A stretch of 64,000 nucleotides of DNA. Source: Buxus sempervirens. Taxonomy: Eukaryota > Streptophyta > Magnoliopsida > Buxales > Buxaceae. The position numbers were made by a program, and so were the translations under genes. Shown here piece by piece: positions 33,434-42,612 of this stretch. The stretch lies in NCBI GenBank assembly GCA_947561395.2, contig OX387190.1, forward strand, positions 31,428,858 to 31,492,857. Direction: 5' to 3'. Every line of letters starts with the position of its first letter. Position 1 is the first letter of the stretch. The notes beneath the pieces are model-generated. The model was not told the DNA's origin, did not search any database, and saw nothing but the letters and a program-made list of their open reading frames with translations.

Positions 33434-34844
33434 TCTTGGTATGTGAATACATAAATGTGCACAACTTACCAAGAGATGGAAGTGGTGCTTTCTCCAAAAT
33501 AGATCTTCTGCTAATTCGTAATTTGGTGAACTCAAAAGGAAAAATCACATCATTTGCGCTCCATGGTTTGCTTTCCACTCGCTTTTATGCTTTTATAAGT
33601 ATATACTAGCATTCTGGCCCGTGCTTTGCACGGGCAAATAGGTTCAAAAAATTATTAAAAAATAAATTATTTTATATATTGTCTTGAAAGTTAATATTAT
33701 TTTTTGGTAGAAGTTGAAAGTTAATATATTAACAATATATAACAGAATTAGAATTAATTATCTAAACGGTAAACACTATCTGATAAGAACTTTAAAATAC
33801 ACCTGGTGTGACAAACCTCATATAGTTACATGAACGTAAAAATGGATATAAATACATGGATTAGTAGTATGTACTATGTACAGGAAACTTCAAAAGTGTG
33901 AGTGCATCTAAGAATTCCCTTCTTATAAAACATTGCAAGCTCCATGAAATAGTTATGAGGTCCTGAAATGAAAAAGAAATAGAATAAGAATAAAGTAAAA
34001 CCAAAAGATATGTGACTACTATTAAACATTGAAAATGTTGTTTATTAAAAGATCTGATAATTTCATAAATTGTAAATGTTGAATTTTGTGGTATTTGCTA
34101 GGAAGCAATATGTCAAGTCATAGGACTGGTAGCAGTTTGATCTGTTTGACAATGCAAATCAATGTCTATCCATGCAATGAAAGATGTCCAGTTAATTAGA
34201 GTACTACTACTATTAAAAAAAAACTTTTGATGAAAAAATTGAATTGTCTACATTGCCAAAATAATAATAATAATAATAATAACAACATATTAATAAATAG
34301 TTGAATAGCTCATTAGGAAACAGCAAACTCAAAATTGAAAACAATAACAAAGTCTTAACATTAGAAAAAATGCCACATCCCAAATAGTTGGGGTCAACAC
34401 GATAAATTCAATATTCAGATCCCAAATCTTGGCACTTTTCCATAATTGCCATTTTAGGCTTCCGATATGTCAAAGCCATGTTAGAGGGTGCTGCTCCTAA
34501 TCAAGGCAATGAGATTTCTAATGCAAAGAGTTTGCTAGATTTGGCAAACGAAACGTCATCGGGGTGGTTCTAAATTCTTCAAAAATAGCTGTTTTAGATG
34601 ATATAGAAGAGAAGTTCACTCATGCTTTGTGTACCTAATGAAGAAAAAAAGTTTATTATTATTTTTCTTTTGGCAGCCGCCGCCGATGACTTTGCCACTG
34701 CTAAGAAAATACAGCAAGGGCTTTCAATAGGAGAGAGAGGATCAGAAAGGAATATAAGAGATAGAGAGGAAGGGAGGCGATCTGGCAATTCAAGAGGTTT
34801 CTCGAATCCCCTCGACAATAGCTTCTTCACTTTTTTTTTTTAAT

Positions 34845-35165
34845 TATCAAATGACTAAATCTAAATTACTTTAAATCTGAAAACCGAAGGAGTAAAGAAT
34901 TGTTTTGTATATACCTGATTTGGAATTATTATAAAAATGAAATAACTAAATCTAAATTACTTTTAAAAACCGAAAAGTCAAAAGTTGCGGCAGGTTTTTT
35001 TTAATTATTATTAAATGACTAAATATAAATTACTTTAAAACTGAAACCGGAAGGAGTAAAAATTTTTTTTTTCTTATACCTTATTTGGAATTATTGTAAA
35101 TATTAAATGACTAAATCTAAATTACTTTAAAAAACGGAAGAAAAAAGTCCAAAGTTACGGCAGGT
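34845..35165. repeat. Minisatellite inside the outer Helitron
   Basis: About four diverged units of 80-90 bases, each starting near ATGACTAAATCTAAATTACTT (at about 34849, 34939, 35022 and 35106). The later part of the units carries GGCAGGTT phrases. Minisatellites near Helitron termini are common. Confidence 0.75.
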
Positions 35166-36208
35166 TCGGACTCCGAACCTGCCCGAGCCTTTTTTTTTTT
35201 TCTTTTCTTTTGTTATTACGAACCTGCCAATTTTTTTTTTTTTTTTTCAGAAAAAAATAGGCTCGGATTCCCGAACCACGCGAAGCGGGCACGTCAGCAG
35301 CCACCCCCGCTTCGCTTAATATATACTAGCAATTGGGCCCGTGCATCGCACGGGCAAATAGTTATAATAATAATTTTGACTTAGCTGCCTTATTTTAAAT
35401 GCCAAGTCTACCCTTAGTAGGTTCCAATAAAAGAGATAAAGTTGTCAATATCTGAAAGGGGAAAATTGTTAAATACAACAAAATGTTCATACAACCATAG
35501 TTAATGAATCCTCTCGTTGTTTATAATATTTAATTGCTGAGAAATGAAAAAACTCAAGAGCTGAAATTTCTAAATCCTCTTCTTGATTATAATATTTAAT
35601 TCATGGGTACATGATGTAAATGGGAAATCCAATGTGTAAACTGCCAGAATGAGAAAATTTTTAGAGTCAAAGAGTTTCCATTCAATGCAACTATAGTTAA
35701 TGAATCATTCAAAAAAGTCATTATCATTGTTTATAGGCTTACCGCAGCACATTATCTCTTCATGATTTTCATAGTTAGAAGATTGTACCCAACTCGTAAA
35801 TTGATGGTGGCATCACAATGGCTCACATATTTTTAACAATAAAAAATGTCTATATTATTACACCTTTTTTTTTTCTGATAAAGTAAAACCAATAACCATT
35901 ATTAAAGCTATCAAACTTCATTAGATGGGCTTACTTACAAACCCGCTCTACCTTCCTGTTTTTGCAGGTAAACATTATATTCAGCTCATATTAACTACTA
36001 TCTGGAGATTGTAATTACTTGGGGAATATCCTAACTAAACTAAAAATTCAGCACACACTTAGAGAAAATTTGAGTAGTTGCAACCTTAGCGACATTTGAC
36101 ATGAAAGTAGGATCCATGTCTCTCTTGAAAAGTTCCATAACTTGTAAAAACTCCAGCTATGTTTCCAAACCTCTGAAATATTTATATACCTTAATTACAT
36201 TAGGGAAG

Positions 36209-36209
<1 letters not shown>

Positions 36210-36257
<48 letters not shown>
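36210..36257. repeat. (GA)n microsatellite
   Basis: About 20 GA units, read directly, inside the inner Helitron. Confidence 0.97.
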
Positions 36258-36261
<4 letters not shown>

Positions 36262-38389
36262 AATGGCATCCCAGGAATCCTCAAACCCATTCGCCTTCCT
36301 ATTTAATAAATTACATTCACAGCAAAAATGAAAATGGAGGAATAGCAAGTTAAAAAGAGATACGAATTAGGATGTTAGCTCAAAAATTGGGATGAAACTG
36401 TCAAGTGATGGAACATGTAATTCCAATCAATAATAATGGAAGAAAAAAAAAACCTTGAGGTGAGAATTTAGGGTCGAACATGCGCAGTTCTGGTATCACA
36501 ATATTCTGTAGCAAGTGTCAATTAGAAAAAAAAAATTGCCAATTAGTCTCATATGATCCTCATTACACCGTCTACAATACAGCACAAATCTAGCAAAAAT
36601 GCAAGATAGAAAGGATGGCAAAAACATTGAGTGCATAGCCTGACGTATGTAATTTTGTTCTGCTTCTTCAGCAAACCTATATATAGGGCTTTTATCAACT
36701 AAAAGGAGAGATTCAACGAAAACACCATTAAATGAGGGGCTGAATTTCACAGAGCAATTCACAATTAAGTACAATATGAAAGGCAAACACAGCCTCCATT
36801 GGATCATCAGTAATGTATAAGTGACCTTGGTTTATTTCAGGTTCATACCCATCAACTCAACATCCTCCATTAGCATCCTGACAATCTTCTTCCTCATCTT
36901 CATAAACAAAAACTATCTTAGTTTTTGTTTATGTATTAATAGGCTCAATGGAAGAGTAAGATATAAGATCAAATGCCTTTTTCTCCCTTCAAGTAATCCC
37001 AACTGGTCATGATTTGTACCATGAGGTTCTGAGCTCTCATCGTCCATTTCCTCTTCATTTTTTTTTTCCATCTTTTAGTGGAAGAATTTCTATCCCGAAA
37101 TATATATGGTTTATTTTCAGCCCTAGGCCGATATTTGCATTCGAAGTGAATGAGATGAAATTGTGCGGTGTTTTTTTTTTGGGTAAAAAACTTCAACAGA
37201 ATCAGAGAGATGTTCTAATGTACAAATTATGGATTGATTGCACAATGAGTACTTCGGTGTAGAGAGGGACTGATGCAGGGAGTAATTCAACTACAATTAT
37301 TAGAATGTACAATCGATGTTTAATTCTTAATCATATATACCTTTCGTGATGTGTTTCTTTGCTTTTGCATAGAGACTTATACTCTCGCTTGTCGTCCAAA
37401 TATGAATCTACATGAGTTATAAAAGTGGAATAGGGAGAACCCCAAAGAGAAGAAAAAGATCATTGACACTATTGTATGGCATAAATATGTCTCATATATG
37501 GATAAAAACACATTTTAAATATTATTGGCATTTCATTGCAGCTAGTTGAATTGCAATTCAAATATCATTATATATACAACAGATATATTTCATCGGAAAT
37601 GTAATTGTGCTGTTAAATTTTCACTTGCAGTTTCATCATGAAGTGTCTACTTGTCCTAACTGCTCTGCTGGTTATACAGCAGTTGAAGAGTGAAACCAAT
37701 TCCCCCATAATTTTTTTTTATCTCAGAAAGTTTATGGGTATTCCCATCGAGAGTTGAAGCCTCTCATATGTTCCTGTTGCAGGTAACTTTCTCCCCACAT
37801 GACGAATATTGATATTATGGTCAGCTCTTCACATAATCAAGACCATTTGGAAGCAAGCATAGAAAAACTTAAGAGGCAGGCAATTCTCTAAAGAAAATGT
37901 TTGGATTTTAACATGTTTTGTGAAACTAAAAAACCTCATGGCCCTGCAATAGTACATTGTGAAGTGGATGGTAACACAACAGAGATGAAGTTTGTGAAAT
38001 AACACCATCAGATGATGGAAAGGATCCTGTTCTTGCTGGAGATCGTCTGGAATCTTAGTCATAGATACCTAAGGAACAATGTCAATCAGTTGCTTGCATC
38101 TTGGCAACTGATTATGTTGAAACAAATGAAATATTGAAAAAAAAAAGTCTTAAAACAAACCTGAATTACGTGTGAGAGACTGCTTTTTTTTGGACTGTGG
38201 TTCATGAGTTGCGAGCTTTAGTTCCACATTACCCTGCAAAATCAAGGTTTTCTCCAAAAATGTAAACAAACTTCATTTGTTTCATAGAAAAGTATCTAGA
38301 AGTTAGATATTACTGTGTATAGGGTATTCATACTGGGTGATTCCCCAATACTCTTCTCGTTTCTTGGCTCCAATGGTTACTAAAAATTT

Positions 38390-38758
38390 TGCACAATGAA
38401 ACTTAACGACCATTAGCATGCTCAGCACCAAGCTGCAAGATAAGTAGCTCATTGAGAGGACGCTCATCCTCCCTGCATCTGCAAATTTTACATTGATTAA
38501 AAAGGGATAAAATATGTCCTTCACGGAACAAAAAATACCTCACGGAACCTAAACATGCTTATTGAGTGGCAGTTTAGATATAAAGGCAATTTACCCCATA
38601 GATGGCAATATCTGAATCTGTAACCAAACCGGTATGGGAGAACCGCCCTTGTGGTTGCTGGCCCTGTATCAAGCTGAGTCCATGAGCAAGTACTCAGATC
38701 AAGAACCCAAACATCAATGTAATGATGCTTATTACCAACACCACGAACAACATAAACC
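38390..38758 (-). pseudogene. Kelch-repeat gene fragment in the Helitron
   Basis: The minus strand encodes a degraded kelch unit: VYVVRGVGNKHHYIDVWVLDL, STCSWTQLDT, then in another frame GQQPQGRFSHTGLVTDSD and IAIYGG. After a small intron-like gap comes GCREDERPLNELLILQLG. This is the order of one kelch blade plus the start of the next. The frame breaks between QLDT and GQQP, and the second glycine of the GG doublet is Arg in the first unit. Only a small part of a kelch protein is present, and I cannot name the parent gene. It directly follows the CDT1-derived part, so the junction near 38760 is probably a capture or fusion point. Non-functional as read. Confidence 0.72.
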
Positions 38759-38769
38759 TGGAGAGGGAG

Positions 38770-40638
38770 CATTGGATTTGCAGAAGAATGTGATGGTTCA
38801 CTGTGGGCATTCTTTGCTTGATACTTGGAATCTTTCCGTGAAAAGTGCCTCTGGAAAGTTGCAGAAATATGAGATGCTGCAGCTTGATGTTGCTCCAGAA
38901 GAGCATTAGTTGACGTCTTAGGAGGAATTAATGGGTGGGAGGCTTCAATTGTGATTAAATCGTATCTTTCTTTACTTGATTGAATGGCTCAGGAATTTCA
39001 TCTACCTGTCCACATAGGGGTGATCTTTAGCAACATATTATCTCTAATAAAATCAGAATCAAAAACAGCAGAGCACCATCCATCAGTTTCAAAATCGTAG
39101 TTGTCGTGTAGCAGGCAAGCATTAGAAATTTTTCATGACAAAAAGATTGAAGTACCTAAAATATTGAATAAGTGAATTTTAAGTGCCACTTTGAGCAGAT
39201 TTTTTCATTGAAGGTAATAAAAAATTTAAAGGTTCTTGAAAAACTTATAATAAATCTAAACAAAAATTACTAAGTTTGTGTGCCAAAATACCAAACAGTA
39301 ATACAAATAACCCATGCTGCATAAATGGCAACAAAGAGTTACCAATGAAATGAAATCATCTGTGACATTCAGTGTGGCATTGAATGGAGATAAATTATTA
39401 AATTCGTCACACAAAAGTTATGCCTGACATACATTGTTATCCCCTTACATTGGCAGGCGAAAATGCTGAGCAGATGTCACAGGAAATGCCACAGCCGATT
39501 TACTTTCCCAACCAATAGAAAAATTCAATAATAACTCATTATAATTATTAAACTAAAACACAATGCACATGAAATTGAATATGAGCAATTGTGGGAATCA
39601 AAAGTCAGAAAAACAATTCAATCCTGTATGAAATTCAACACATCTGTGGAAACACAAATTCAAGAATAAGATTAACCCATTGTCAAATATATAAACCATG
39701 CTCCAAAAGTTAGATTTCCTACGAAATGATATGCACAAAATAGAGAGACCAAGTTTACCATAGGATGTGCTTTGAAGAAATCCAAAAGCCGCCCCCGGAA
39801 GACCTTCTCAAACTGGAGCTTTCGCATATTTTTTTCTGCTTCCTTCCCCTTTCAGTCCCATTAACTTGCAAAAGAACCTTCTTTATCATAATTGACTCCG
39901 GCAATATGAACTTCAATTGAGTTAAATGAGAATATGAAAACTTCCTGAAAATTGAAAGAATAAATTGTCATTACAGAAAAAGAAAAGAACAACCATTTTA
40001 GAAGATGAACATTTTTAATCTTGGGACAAATGTTCGTGTAAGTCAACATTGAGCCCTTCAACCGAAGCAATTGAATCGAACTCTCCAGGCTATTGAAGAA
40101 TTCACCCAGTAACTCATACCTAAATCACACTATTAAATATCAAAATGGATTGAAGATCTCATCCAAGCAAGATATTAATCAACTGAAACGGTAATAAACA
40201 CCTAAAAAAAAAGGCCTCGTCGTTTCTCAAATACAGTAAATATCCTTTACAGTTCTGACAATGCAACGAAGATCTTACTTCTCCGGAAGCTTGATTAAGC
40301 CTTTATCCTTCGACGATTCATTAACTGGATTTTCATCTAGCAATAGACTGTGCTTCCTCCGACTTCCGGAGCCCTTGGGCGGCCTTCTTCACTTCCTTCA
40401 GTGAAAGCGCAACACCACGGTTCCTGATTCGTTGTGGGATCTGCGTGGGCTTCTTCGGTGTTTTCGAGCTCCACGGATTCTGATCTGGGGATTGGATCTG
40501 CGACGATTTCTCTTGTAATTTTGCAGGCAATGGATAGTCGTCTGTGGCTGGGATCACATTCGATAAAGCTGATTTAGAACTCGAGCGAAGTATCTTCTTC
40601 GACTTGAATGGATTAAATGGCGATTTCGTTCGCTCCAT
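38770..40638 (-). pseudogene. CDT1-like: CDT1 replication-licensing gene fragment in the Helitron
   Basis: The parent gene encodes CDT1, which loads MCM helicase at replication origins together with ORC and CDC6. Recognisable minus-strand pieces in order: an N-terminal exon from 40638 (MERTKSPFNPFKSKK, RNRGVALSLKEVKKAA) to LPEK near 40286; YELLGEFFNSLESS and RLKGSMLTYTNICPK (about 40020-40128); FSYSHLTQLKFILPES and LQFEKVFRGRLLDFFKAHP (about 39760-39947); and EIPEPFNQ near 38990. A serine-rich part to about 38770 may also be CDT1. Damage by eye: the N-terminal exon frame stops at 40333 before a shifted LDENPVNESSKDKG continuation; the Thr-Asp-Arg-Arg segment before FSYSHL is missing; stops follow EIPEPFNQ. 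Exon-intron borders survive, so the capture was of genomic DNA. The C-terminal MCM-binding domain is absent. Confidence 0.82.
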
Positions 40639-40874
40639 ACCAGAGATCAATCGATACTTACAGTTCGAACATTCCCGAAGGCAGATCCTTCTTGAGCATT
40701 CCAGAAGGCGAGGAAGCAAATCTCATGGGAACTGGATTGAGAGAGAAAATTGGCATAGAGAGAACACAGAAGAGGAGAGGAGGGAGAGAAGAATCGAAAA
40801 AGAAATTAAAAAATTTTCTAATCTTGATAGGTTCGGTCACCCTTGAGAGGTTTAACGGTGGGACGATTCTTGCC

Positions 40875-41072
40875 ATGAAGGAAATCTATAACACAGCAGC
40901 TCAAGGCGAAGTTGGAGCAGCGTCTGGCATCCATGACGATCTGATTAAGCTTCTGGATGGCGTGTGCCCTGGAGATTTGATGAAGCTTCGGGACGTTGTG
41001 GTGGTTGAGGAGGGGTCGAGAGCCTTCTGGAAATTTCTTCACGATGGAAGGTTTTTTTGGGAAAAAAAATAA
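40875..41072 (+). other. Unrecognised 65-codon frame, head-to-head with the CDT1 fragment
   Basis: Starts MKEIYNTAAQGEVGAA and continues GIHDDLIKLLDGVCPGDLMKL, RDVVVVEEGSRAFWKFLHDGR, then FFWEKK. The composition looks like real coding sequence rather than a chance frame. AAG|GTTTTT just after LHDGR could be a splice donor, making this a first exon. It lies between the CDT1 start and the Helitron 5' end, in opposite orientation. It may be the first exon of the gene that shared a bidirectional promoter with the captured CDT1. I do not recognise the family. Confidence 0.45.
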
Positions 41073-41376
41073 CGAAAAATTCCTACTGTCGACACTACAG
41101 AGTTAGATTACTTTCTTGCAATCCGAACATTGCAGGAGAGTAGTTGAGTTGATTGCAGTTGAAAAAGAGAAGACGGACGCCTGTGTGGCCGAAACGATGG
41201 AAAGAGAGAGTGAGAGTAAGAGAGAGACGTGTGAAGTGTCAGGTCTGTGATAGGCCTGACACCGTTTTCTGCCGGGCTCGGGCGATTAAAAAAAGAAAAA
41301 GGGAGGCTCGGGCGGGCGAGGCAACGCGAGGCGGCCACGTCAGCCCGAAGCCGTTTCATTTAAGAGAATAGATAGA

Positions 41377-41680: not shown

Positions 41681-42612
41681 CTAGCAGGCAGCAGCCCTTG
41701 CTTCGCACGGGCGTTGTGACATAAGAGAGCATTGTAACAAATTGCATTTGTTTCCGTTTGGAAAAAAAAAAAAAAGAGTATTTCTATGAAACAAAATTAC
41801 AGATCAAACATTATGGCAGCCACCTTCACAACACCACTGATGGTTTCAATTTGATTAAGCTTTTGCTCTATTACTTTATAATAACAATTGTAAAATTGTA
41901 TAAGTAAAACTGATCCTATGATAAAAGTATATTATAGTAGAAAATCACAGCCACAATTTGAATAGACGCAAGGTTTGAAATGGGAATTTTTGACCATGTC
42001 TACATCCACATTGAACATAACAATATACATGCTACATAAGTGATTTCTCAATTTTTCAGCCACATTAGACATAACCCGTTAGTTCCAGATTTAAAAATTT
42101 TGCTAAATATTAGAGAGATAAATATAGAATTTTGAGAGTTGAAAGTTGTCACGCCTCTCATCATTGCCTCTCATTATTATCATTTGATTGAAGCTCTTCA
42201 AACTACTACAATCCTTAACATCAGCATTAACCTATGAATTATATCAAAAAAAAAAACATTAACCTATGAAAAAGAGGAGAGAGTAAACAATTTTATAGCT
42301 AAGTGAGAGAAAGTACAAAAATGCATCTTCATAGTTATAAATATTTTAGATTTGGAGCAGATTAGAAGCTTATGCTTGTTTCTATTTTCCCATTTTTTGA
42401 AAATGTGAAAATAGGTTGTCTTGACTCTTGAAGGTGATATATAGTAAAAAAAATTCAAAATAGTTTGTGAATGTACCGTTACTTTTGCCATCAACCACTA
42501 TCCACAGCTTTGGAAAAACTAAGTACTAAATTAAGAGATGAAATTAAGAGAAAGAAGCTCAAATGTCATTTGTATTACTTTCTATTTCTCTCGGAAAAAC
42601 AACTTCTGCAAT

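Follow-up and report, generated by a model that had tools for sequence, protein, structure and literature searches.

A 64,000-nucleotide stretch of the Buxus sempervirens genome (the window; C12:31428858-31492857 in a 676.5-Mb assembly) contains a non-autonomous, gene-capturing Helitron on its minus strand, Helitron A, and this identity is confirmed for positions 35326-41372. The element combines DNA from CDT1, a kelch gene and a carboxylesterase (CXE)-like gene with a piece of an older Helitron; it was very probably built by stepwise capture and multiplied by rolling-circle copying, with its CDT1-kelch chimera a pseudogene. A sequence-only reading of the window had first flagged an element at 38390-41072. 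This interval does lie within a Helitron, in its 5′ half, but it makes up less than half of the element, whose full extent and main parts are as follows.

35326-41372, minus strand: Helitron A, 6047 bp, non-autonomous and gene-carrying, recognised by its ends, its copies and a paralogous empty site in another element, Helitron B
35326-35355, minus strand: 3′ terminus of Helitron A, with hairpin GCCCGTGC-GAT-GCACGGGC (35337-35355), seven bases, CTAG (35326-35329), then T
41339-41372, minus strand: 5′ terminus of Helitron A, beginning TCTATTCTCTTAAATGAAACGG and preceded by A
38759-40659, minus strand: CDT1 fragment with its introns, starting 21 bp ahead of the ATG and ending inside exon 4
40333-40638, minus strand: what is left of the CDT1 exon 1 frame, open for 101 codons up to a stop caused by a 50-bp deletion
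38083-38765, minus strand: kelch gene fragment, by DNA match to a kelch gene on C22
38521-38988, minus strand: reading frame spanning the junction of CDT1 exon 4 and the kelch exon without interruption
40840-41117, minus strand: CXE-like fragment, the 5′ part of the gene, in the orientation of CDT1, by DNA match and frame homology

Ends of Helitron A

Helitron A has the canonical ends of its class (5′-TC and CTRR-3′) in the form of 5′-TCTATTCTC and CTAG, which are common to many loci. The GC-rich 3′ hairpin, with an 8-bp stem and a 3-base loop, stands 11 bases before the end, and the insertion lies between A and T without target duplication, as read from 11 of 12 unoccupied ends of Helitron B. 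The 3′ pattern matched 214 times and the 5′ pattern 45 times genome-wide, whereas the same patterns read backwards gave 0 matches each. Within the window alone the 5′ pattern had one exact match, and with three mismatches allowed it also matched in 8 of 100 shuffles; such a match does not discriminate, and therefore the genome-wide counts are the real evidence for the ends and bear out the Helitron identity proposed from the sequence alone. The 5′ end is shared with other loci up to about the first base of Helitron A, and the sequences diverge beyond it. A partial pairing of ends by hand (23 of the 45 5′ ends against 31 of the 214 3′ ends) gave a same-strand 3′ end within 40 kb for 10 of 23 A-type 5′ ends. 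Since one of these pairs is a tandem junction 1 bp apart and two use one 3′ end, the 10 pairs represent at most eight separate elements.

Captured gene fragments

The CDT1 fragment matches C22:23068269-23070461 in three blocks with 83.7, 78.8 and 89.4% identity. Exons 1-4 of the C22 locus, spliced by hand, scored 47.5 bits against Pfam CDT1, while every single exon tested alone stayed below the Pfam cut-off; a downstream exon of the locus scored 54.3 bits for CDT1_C, the only match to this family found in the genome. The introns align in all three Helitron copies described below, indicating capture at the DNA level, and the exon-intron structure reported earlier for the CDT1 pieces holds. Homology begins only 21 bp before the ATG. 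Therefore, the CDT1 promoter, which the element had been thought possibly to carry, was not captured.

The kelch fragment is 87.7% identical to C22:29310635-29311335, a locus with a kelch propeller score of 188 bits, so that both source genes could be located and aligned in the genome, as had been proposed. The CDT1 and kelch blocks overlap at 38759-38765 in the same orientation, which puts the junction at about 38760, in agreement with the sequence-only reading. Judged from the reading frame, CDT1 exon 4 is joined to kelch sequence at the kelch splice acceptor, and TCCA is present in both source sequences at the join.

The CXE-like fragment matches L014, a Helitron on C15, and also two loci on C3, at 5.104 and 5.175 Mb. 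The minus-strand frame at C3:5.104 Mb showed 82% identity to the window over 39 residues and 46-48% identity to three open frames on C15, one of which, fully read, is an Abhydrolase_3 protein of 335 amino acids (195 bits). In a comparison with solved structures, the best of seven weak hits of the C3 frame had E 0.11, and plant CXE carboxylesterases made up five of the seven; a second solved-structure search with the C3 frames returned nothing relevant. In Pfam, the carboxylesterase frame of the window itself was assigned to no family, and the C3 frame had a weak unrelated hit alone. This third source had been taken for a first exon placed head-to-head with CDT1. That candidate was rejected: the plus-strand frame is the antisense of the CXE-like fragment, which lies on the same strand as CDT1. 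The broader proposal of several host sources in one element stands, as fragments of CDT1, kelch and CXE-like DNA lie between Helitron ends and the genes lie elsewhere (CDT1 and kelch on C22, CXE on C15).

Copies of Helitron A

Two further copies of Helitron A are present in the genome, about 98% and 89-90% identical to it where aligned. The second copy (L009, C12:28.977-28.985 Mb) matches 35311-41373 piecewise, with the main pieces at 95-99% and with gaps and extra DNA between some of them, and is inserted at an ordinary A|T. Near its 5′ end (1611-2793 of L009) there is a 594-bp tandem duplication, 99% identical, which the window copy lacks. The third copy (L010, on C14) matches 38638-41216 at 89-90%; its 5′ end is recognisable but different from that of Helitron A, and the rest of Helitron A beyond 38638-41216 had no match there. 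The CDT1|kelch junction is common to all three. Over the CDT1 part, the window is at a distance of 0.009 from L009, 0.043 from L010 and 0.092 from the C22 gene. Another locus, at C12:27.29 Mb (L018), has only 84 bp of the CDT1 part in common.

Decay of the CDT1-kelch chimera

CDT1 exon 1 carries the 50-bp deletion in all three copies. The ensuing frame of 101 codons and a stop is present in the window and in L009, and exon 1 of L010 has stops at codons 3 and 58. More deletions occur in exons 2 and 3 of the element, the kelch frame is lost at a 2-bp deletion downstream of the junction, and most of the kelch exon is deleted in L009. Comparison of the window with the CDT1 gene over 297 bp of exon 1 gave 3 synonymous and 7 nonsynonymous changes, which, small as these numbers are, would be about what drift gives and look neutral. 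As far as its sequence tells, the chimera is a pseudogene (promoterless, frameshifted and drifting) because of the shared deletion, the early stops of L010 and the neutral-looking changes in exon 1; an intact frame under purifying selection was not found. The coding parts are thus broken in all three copies, and exon 1 shows no constraint in a small sample.

A functional gene was accordingly set aside. A truncated CDT1 or a CDT1-kelch fusion protein acting on replication licensing could point to the ATG and the 101 open codons of exon 1 in two copies and to the in-frame CDT1|kelch junction. However, with no captured promoter, with deletions across exons 1 to 3 and with kelch broken or largely missing, such a protein is extremely improbable. 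The element might also be inert as a protein gene and lower the activity of the real CDT1 gene through antisense or small RNAs, given about 1.9 kb of CDT1-like DNA in three copies. The copies differ from the CDT1 gene by about 9%, which weakens small-RNA matching, and we consider this effect very unlikely.

Stepwise assembly

Two other pieces of Helitron A bear on its history or are shared with other loci.

40663-40842, minus strand: piece found just inside Helitron 5′ ends elsewhere, matching L013 and L017
37340-38055, plus strand: probable further gene fragment, similar to C6:53.19 Mb, with the strand inferred from the longest C6 frame

The matches to 40663-40842 each adjoin a Helitron-like 5′ end, which is decayed in L013. 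The similarity of 37340-38055 to C6:53.19 Mb is 89% over 72 bp and 82% over 622 bp, and none of the frames at C6 gave a Pfam hit at E values up to 0.1.

The locus L013 (C15:24.008-24.026 Mb) contains pieces matching 37271-37815, 37813-38055, 38081-38765 and 40663-40842, in the order and orientation of the window and with other DNA between them. CDT1 had no match at this locus. In its place, between kelch and the 5′ piece, are about 385 bp of unrelated DNA, for which no match was found among the loci compared or in the window. The 2-bp kelch deletion is common to L013, the window and L010 and absent from the C22 gene. A search tolerating up to four errors found a decayed hairpin-CTAG about 215 bp from the outermost C15 piece. 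Since this locus holds kelch and the older Helitron 5′ piece without CDT1, we infer stepwise capture. The smaller distance of CDT1 from its source gene (0.092, against 0.13 for kelch) agrees with a later addition of CDT1, although the two genes may differ in evolutionary rate.

In such a course of events, an older Helitron would already have contained the kelch fragment. CDT1 DNA would then have been placed between this fragment and the older 5′ piece, its ends joined at a few matching bases as expected of filler DNA copied in while a break is repaired. Upstream, a new 5′ end bearing the carboxylesterase fragment would have been attached, and the element may then have been copied by rolling-circle transposition with RepHel from related autonomous elements. 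RepHel is present in the genome, with 142 Helitron_like_N family matches and some genes with long open frames; one match, on C3, is located 7.6 kb downstream of an A-type 5′ end.

CDT1 could instead have entered by terminator bypass, an older Helitron having been read past its 3′ end into neighbouring CDT1 DNA and having taken it along. Bypass of the 3′ end is reported to occur experimentally for Helraiser (PMC4778049), but CDT1 is internal to Helitron A, between pieces only about 385 bp apart at the C15 locus. This position, together with the short matches at the CDT1 ends, fits the filler-DNA model better, and bypass is unlikely.

Several points weigh against the stepwise history and the pseudogene reading. 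The Helitron ends at C15 are decayed, the 3′ end being found only at up to four errors, and the locus may have arisen from a CDT1-bearing element by loss of CDT1 instead of being ancestral; the unrelated DNA in the place of CDT1 counts against such a loss. The C3 carboxylesterase loci are themselves decayed, which makes the exact donor uncertain, and the fragment may have come from a different gene. The autonomous partner is putative. Finally, one might read function into the in-frame junction, though by chance one in three joins would be in frame.

Insertion into Helitron B

Helitron A interrupts a smaller Helitron in the same orientation.

33606-35325, minus strand: outer Helitron B from its fifth base onward, with its 3′ CTAG at 33606-33609
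41373-41376, minus strand: the four bases TCTA with which Helitron B starts, separated from the rest of it by the insertion of Helitron A

The insertion is four bases inside Helitron B, at TCTA|TATATATT, and the nesting of an inner Helitron in an outer one was thus correctly seen before. Among 12 unoccupied B 5′ ends that were fetched, 11 read ATCTA|TATATATT and one differs. With at most two mismatches allowed, 72 B ends were found genome-wide, and at least 17 of them are immediately preceded by CTAG. Junctions at the B 5′ end number 24 in all, two of them without the exact CTAG, and 15 of the 24 have a same-strand A-type 5′ end upstream within 40 kb, where about 0.001 per junction is expected. 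Flanks were read for 24 A-type 5′ ends, a non-random sample, as several were fetched for their nearness to a junction or 3′ end. TCTA stands in front of 11, all paired with a junction, and 4 of the remaining 13, which lack TCTA, also pair with one.

In a tree of 16 B elements (nine occupied and seven unoccupied), the occupied ones form two groups separated by about 0.5 substitutions per site. The first group contains four occupied elements interspersed with three unoccupied ones; the five members sampled from the second are all occupied, a pattern consistent with the spread of one composite. This tree would require either two or more insertions at the TCTA|TATATATT bond or a transfer by recombination via the conserved 5′ end. 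The repeated occupancy reflects either a recurrent landing site or the spread of composites. Related Helitrons may repeatedly choose TCTA|TATATATTAAG, four bases into B, over adjacent A|T steps for their insertion, which would make the bond a specific landing site, with Rep perhaps recognising a cognate 5′ end; we put this forward tentatively, as somewhat less than an even chance.

Other arrangements of Helitrons were seen in the window and elsewhere. A further minus-strand 3′ end, with an imperfect hairpin followed by CTAG (41681-41684), is present at 41681-41712, just past the nested pair. Helitrons lie head-to-tail with no base between them at C3:17.163 Mb (L062), C3:39.368 Mb (L064), C8:34.41 Mb (L028) and C9:31.247 Mb (L017), CTAG being directly followed by the TCTATT of the next element; the upstream hairpin is decayed in L017. 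At C3:55608748-55644503, an A-type 5′ end, a CTAG|TATATATT junction and a B-type 3′ end occur on one strand within 36 kb, together with two Helitron_like_N matches in open frames of 1520 amino acids. This locus is a candidate autonomous partner nested in B.

Relation to known Helitrons

Helitron A belongs to a known class, the gene-capturing Helitrons, and the kind of event is already known. Our literature search, judged by title and start of abstract, found no paper on a Helitron with CDT1. According to passages of a maize study (Dong et al. 2011, PMC3288121), Helitrons of that plant gain several gene fragments per element stepwise, insert near or inside other Helitrons and form composites with several ends. 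Helitron A resembles them in all these respects and differs in the genome and the captured genes. For the insect Hel1 Helitrons, internal capture of filler DNA with short matches at the joins is described, arguing against end bypass (part of PMC6544945). Fragments were likewise added internally with short matches here, but the Hel1 intermediates are complete elements, whereas ours is decayed and split by other DNA. Helitrons inserted at the 5′ ends of other Helitrons, giving tandem or composite elements, are reported from Fusarium and Metarhizium (part of PMC5148889). A Helitron at or beside the 5′ end of another is the shared feature; the cases described there are single ones, whereas in this genome many loci carry an insertion at precisely one bond, four bases inside the outer element.

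For annotators, the CDT1 part of Helitron A should not be called a second CDT1 gene. The element offers a readable example of stepwise capture, a single assembly containing the source genes, a probable CDT1-less intermediate and three later copies. Because CDT1 lies inside the element, filler DNA from break repair is a better account of its entry than read-through of the terminator. The repeated use of one exact bond in the 5′ end of a related Helitron is a hint on how Helitrons choose their targets. If the bond is indeed a landing site, composites could spread as units, giving new combinations of ends for gene capture.
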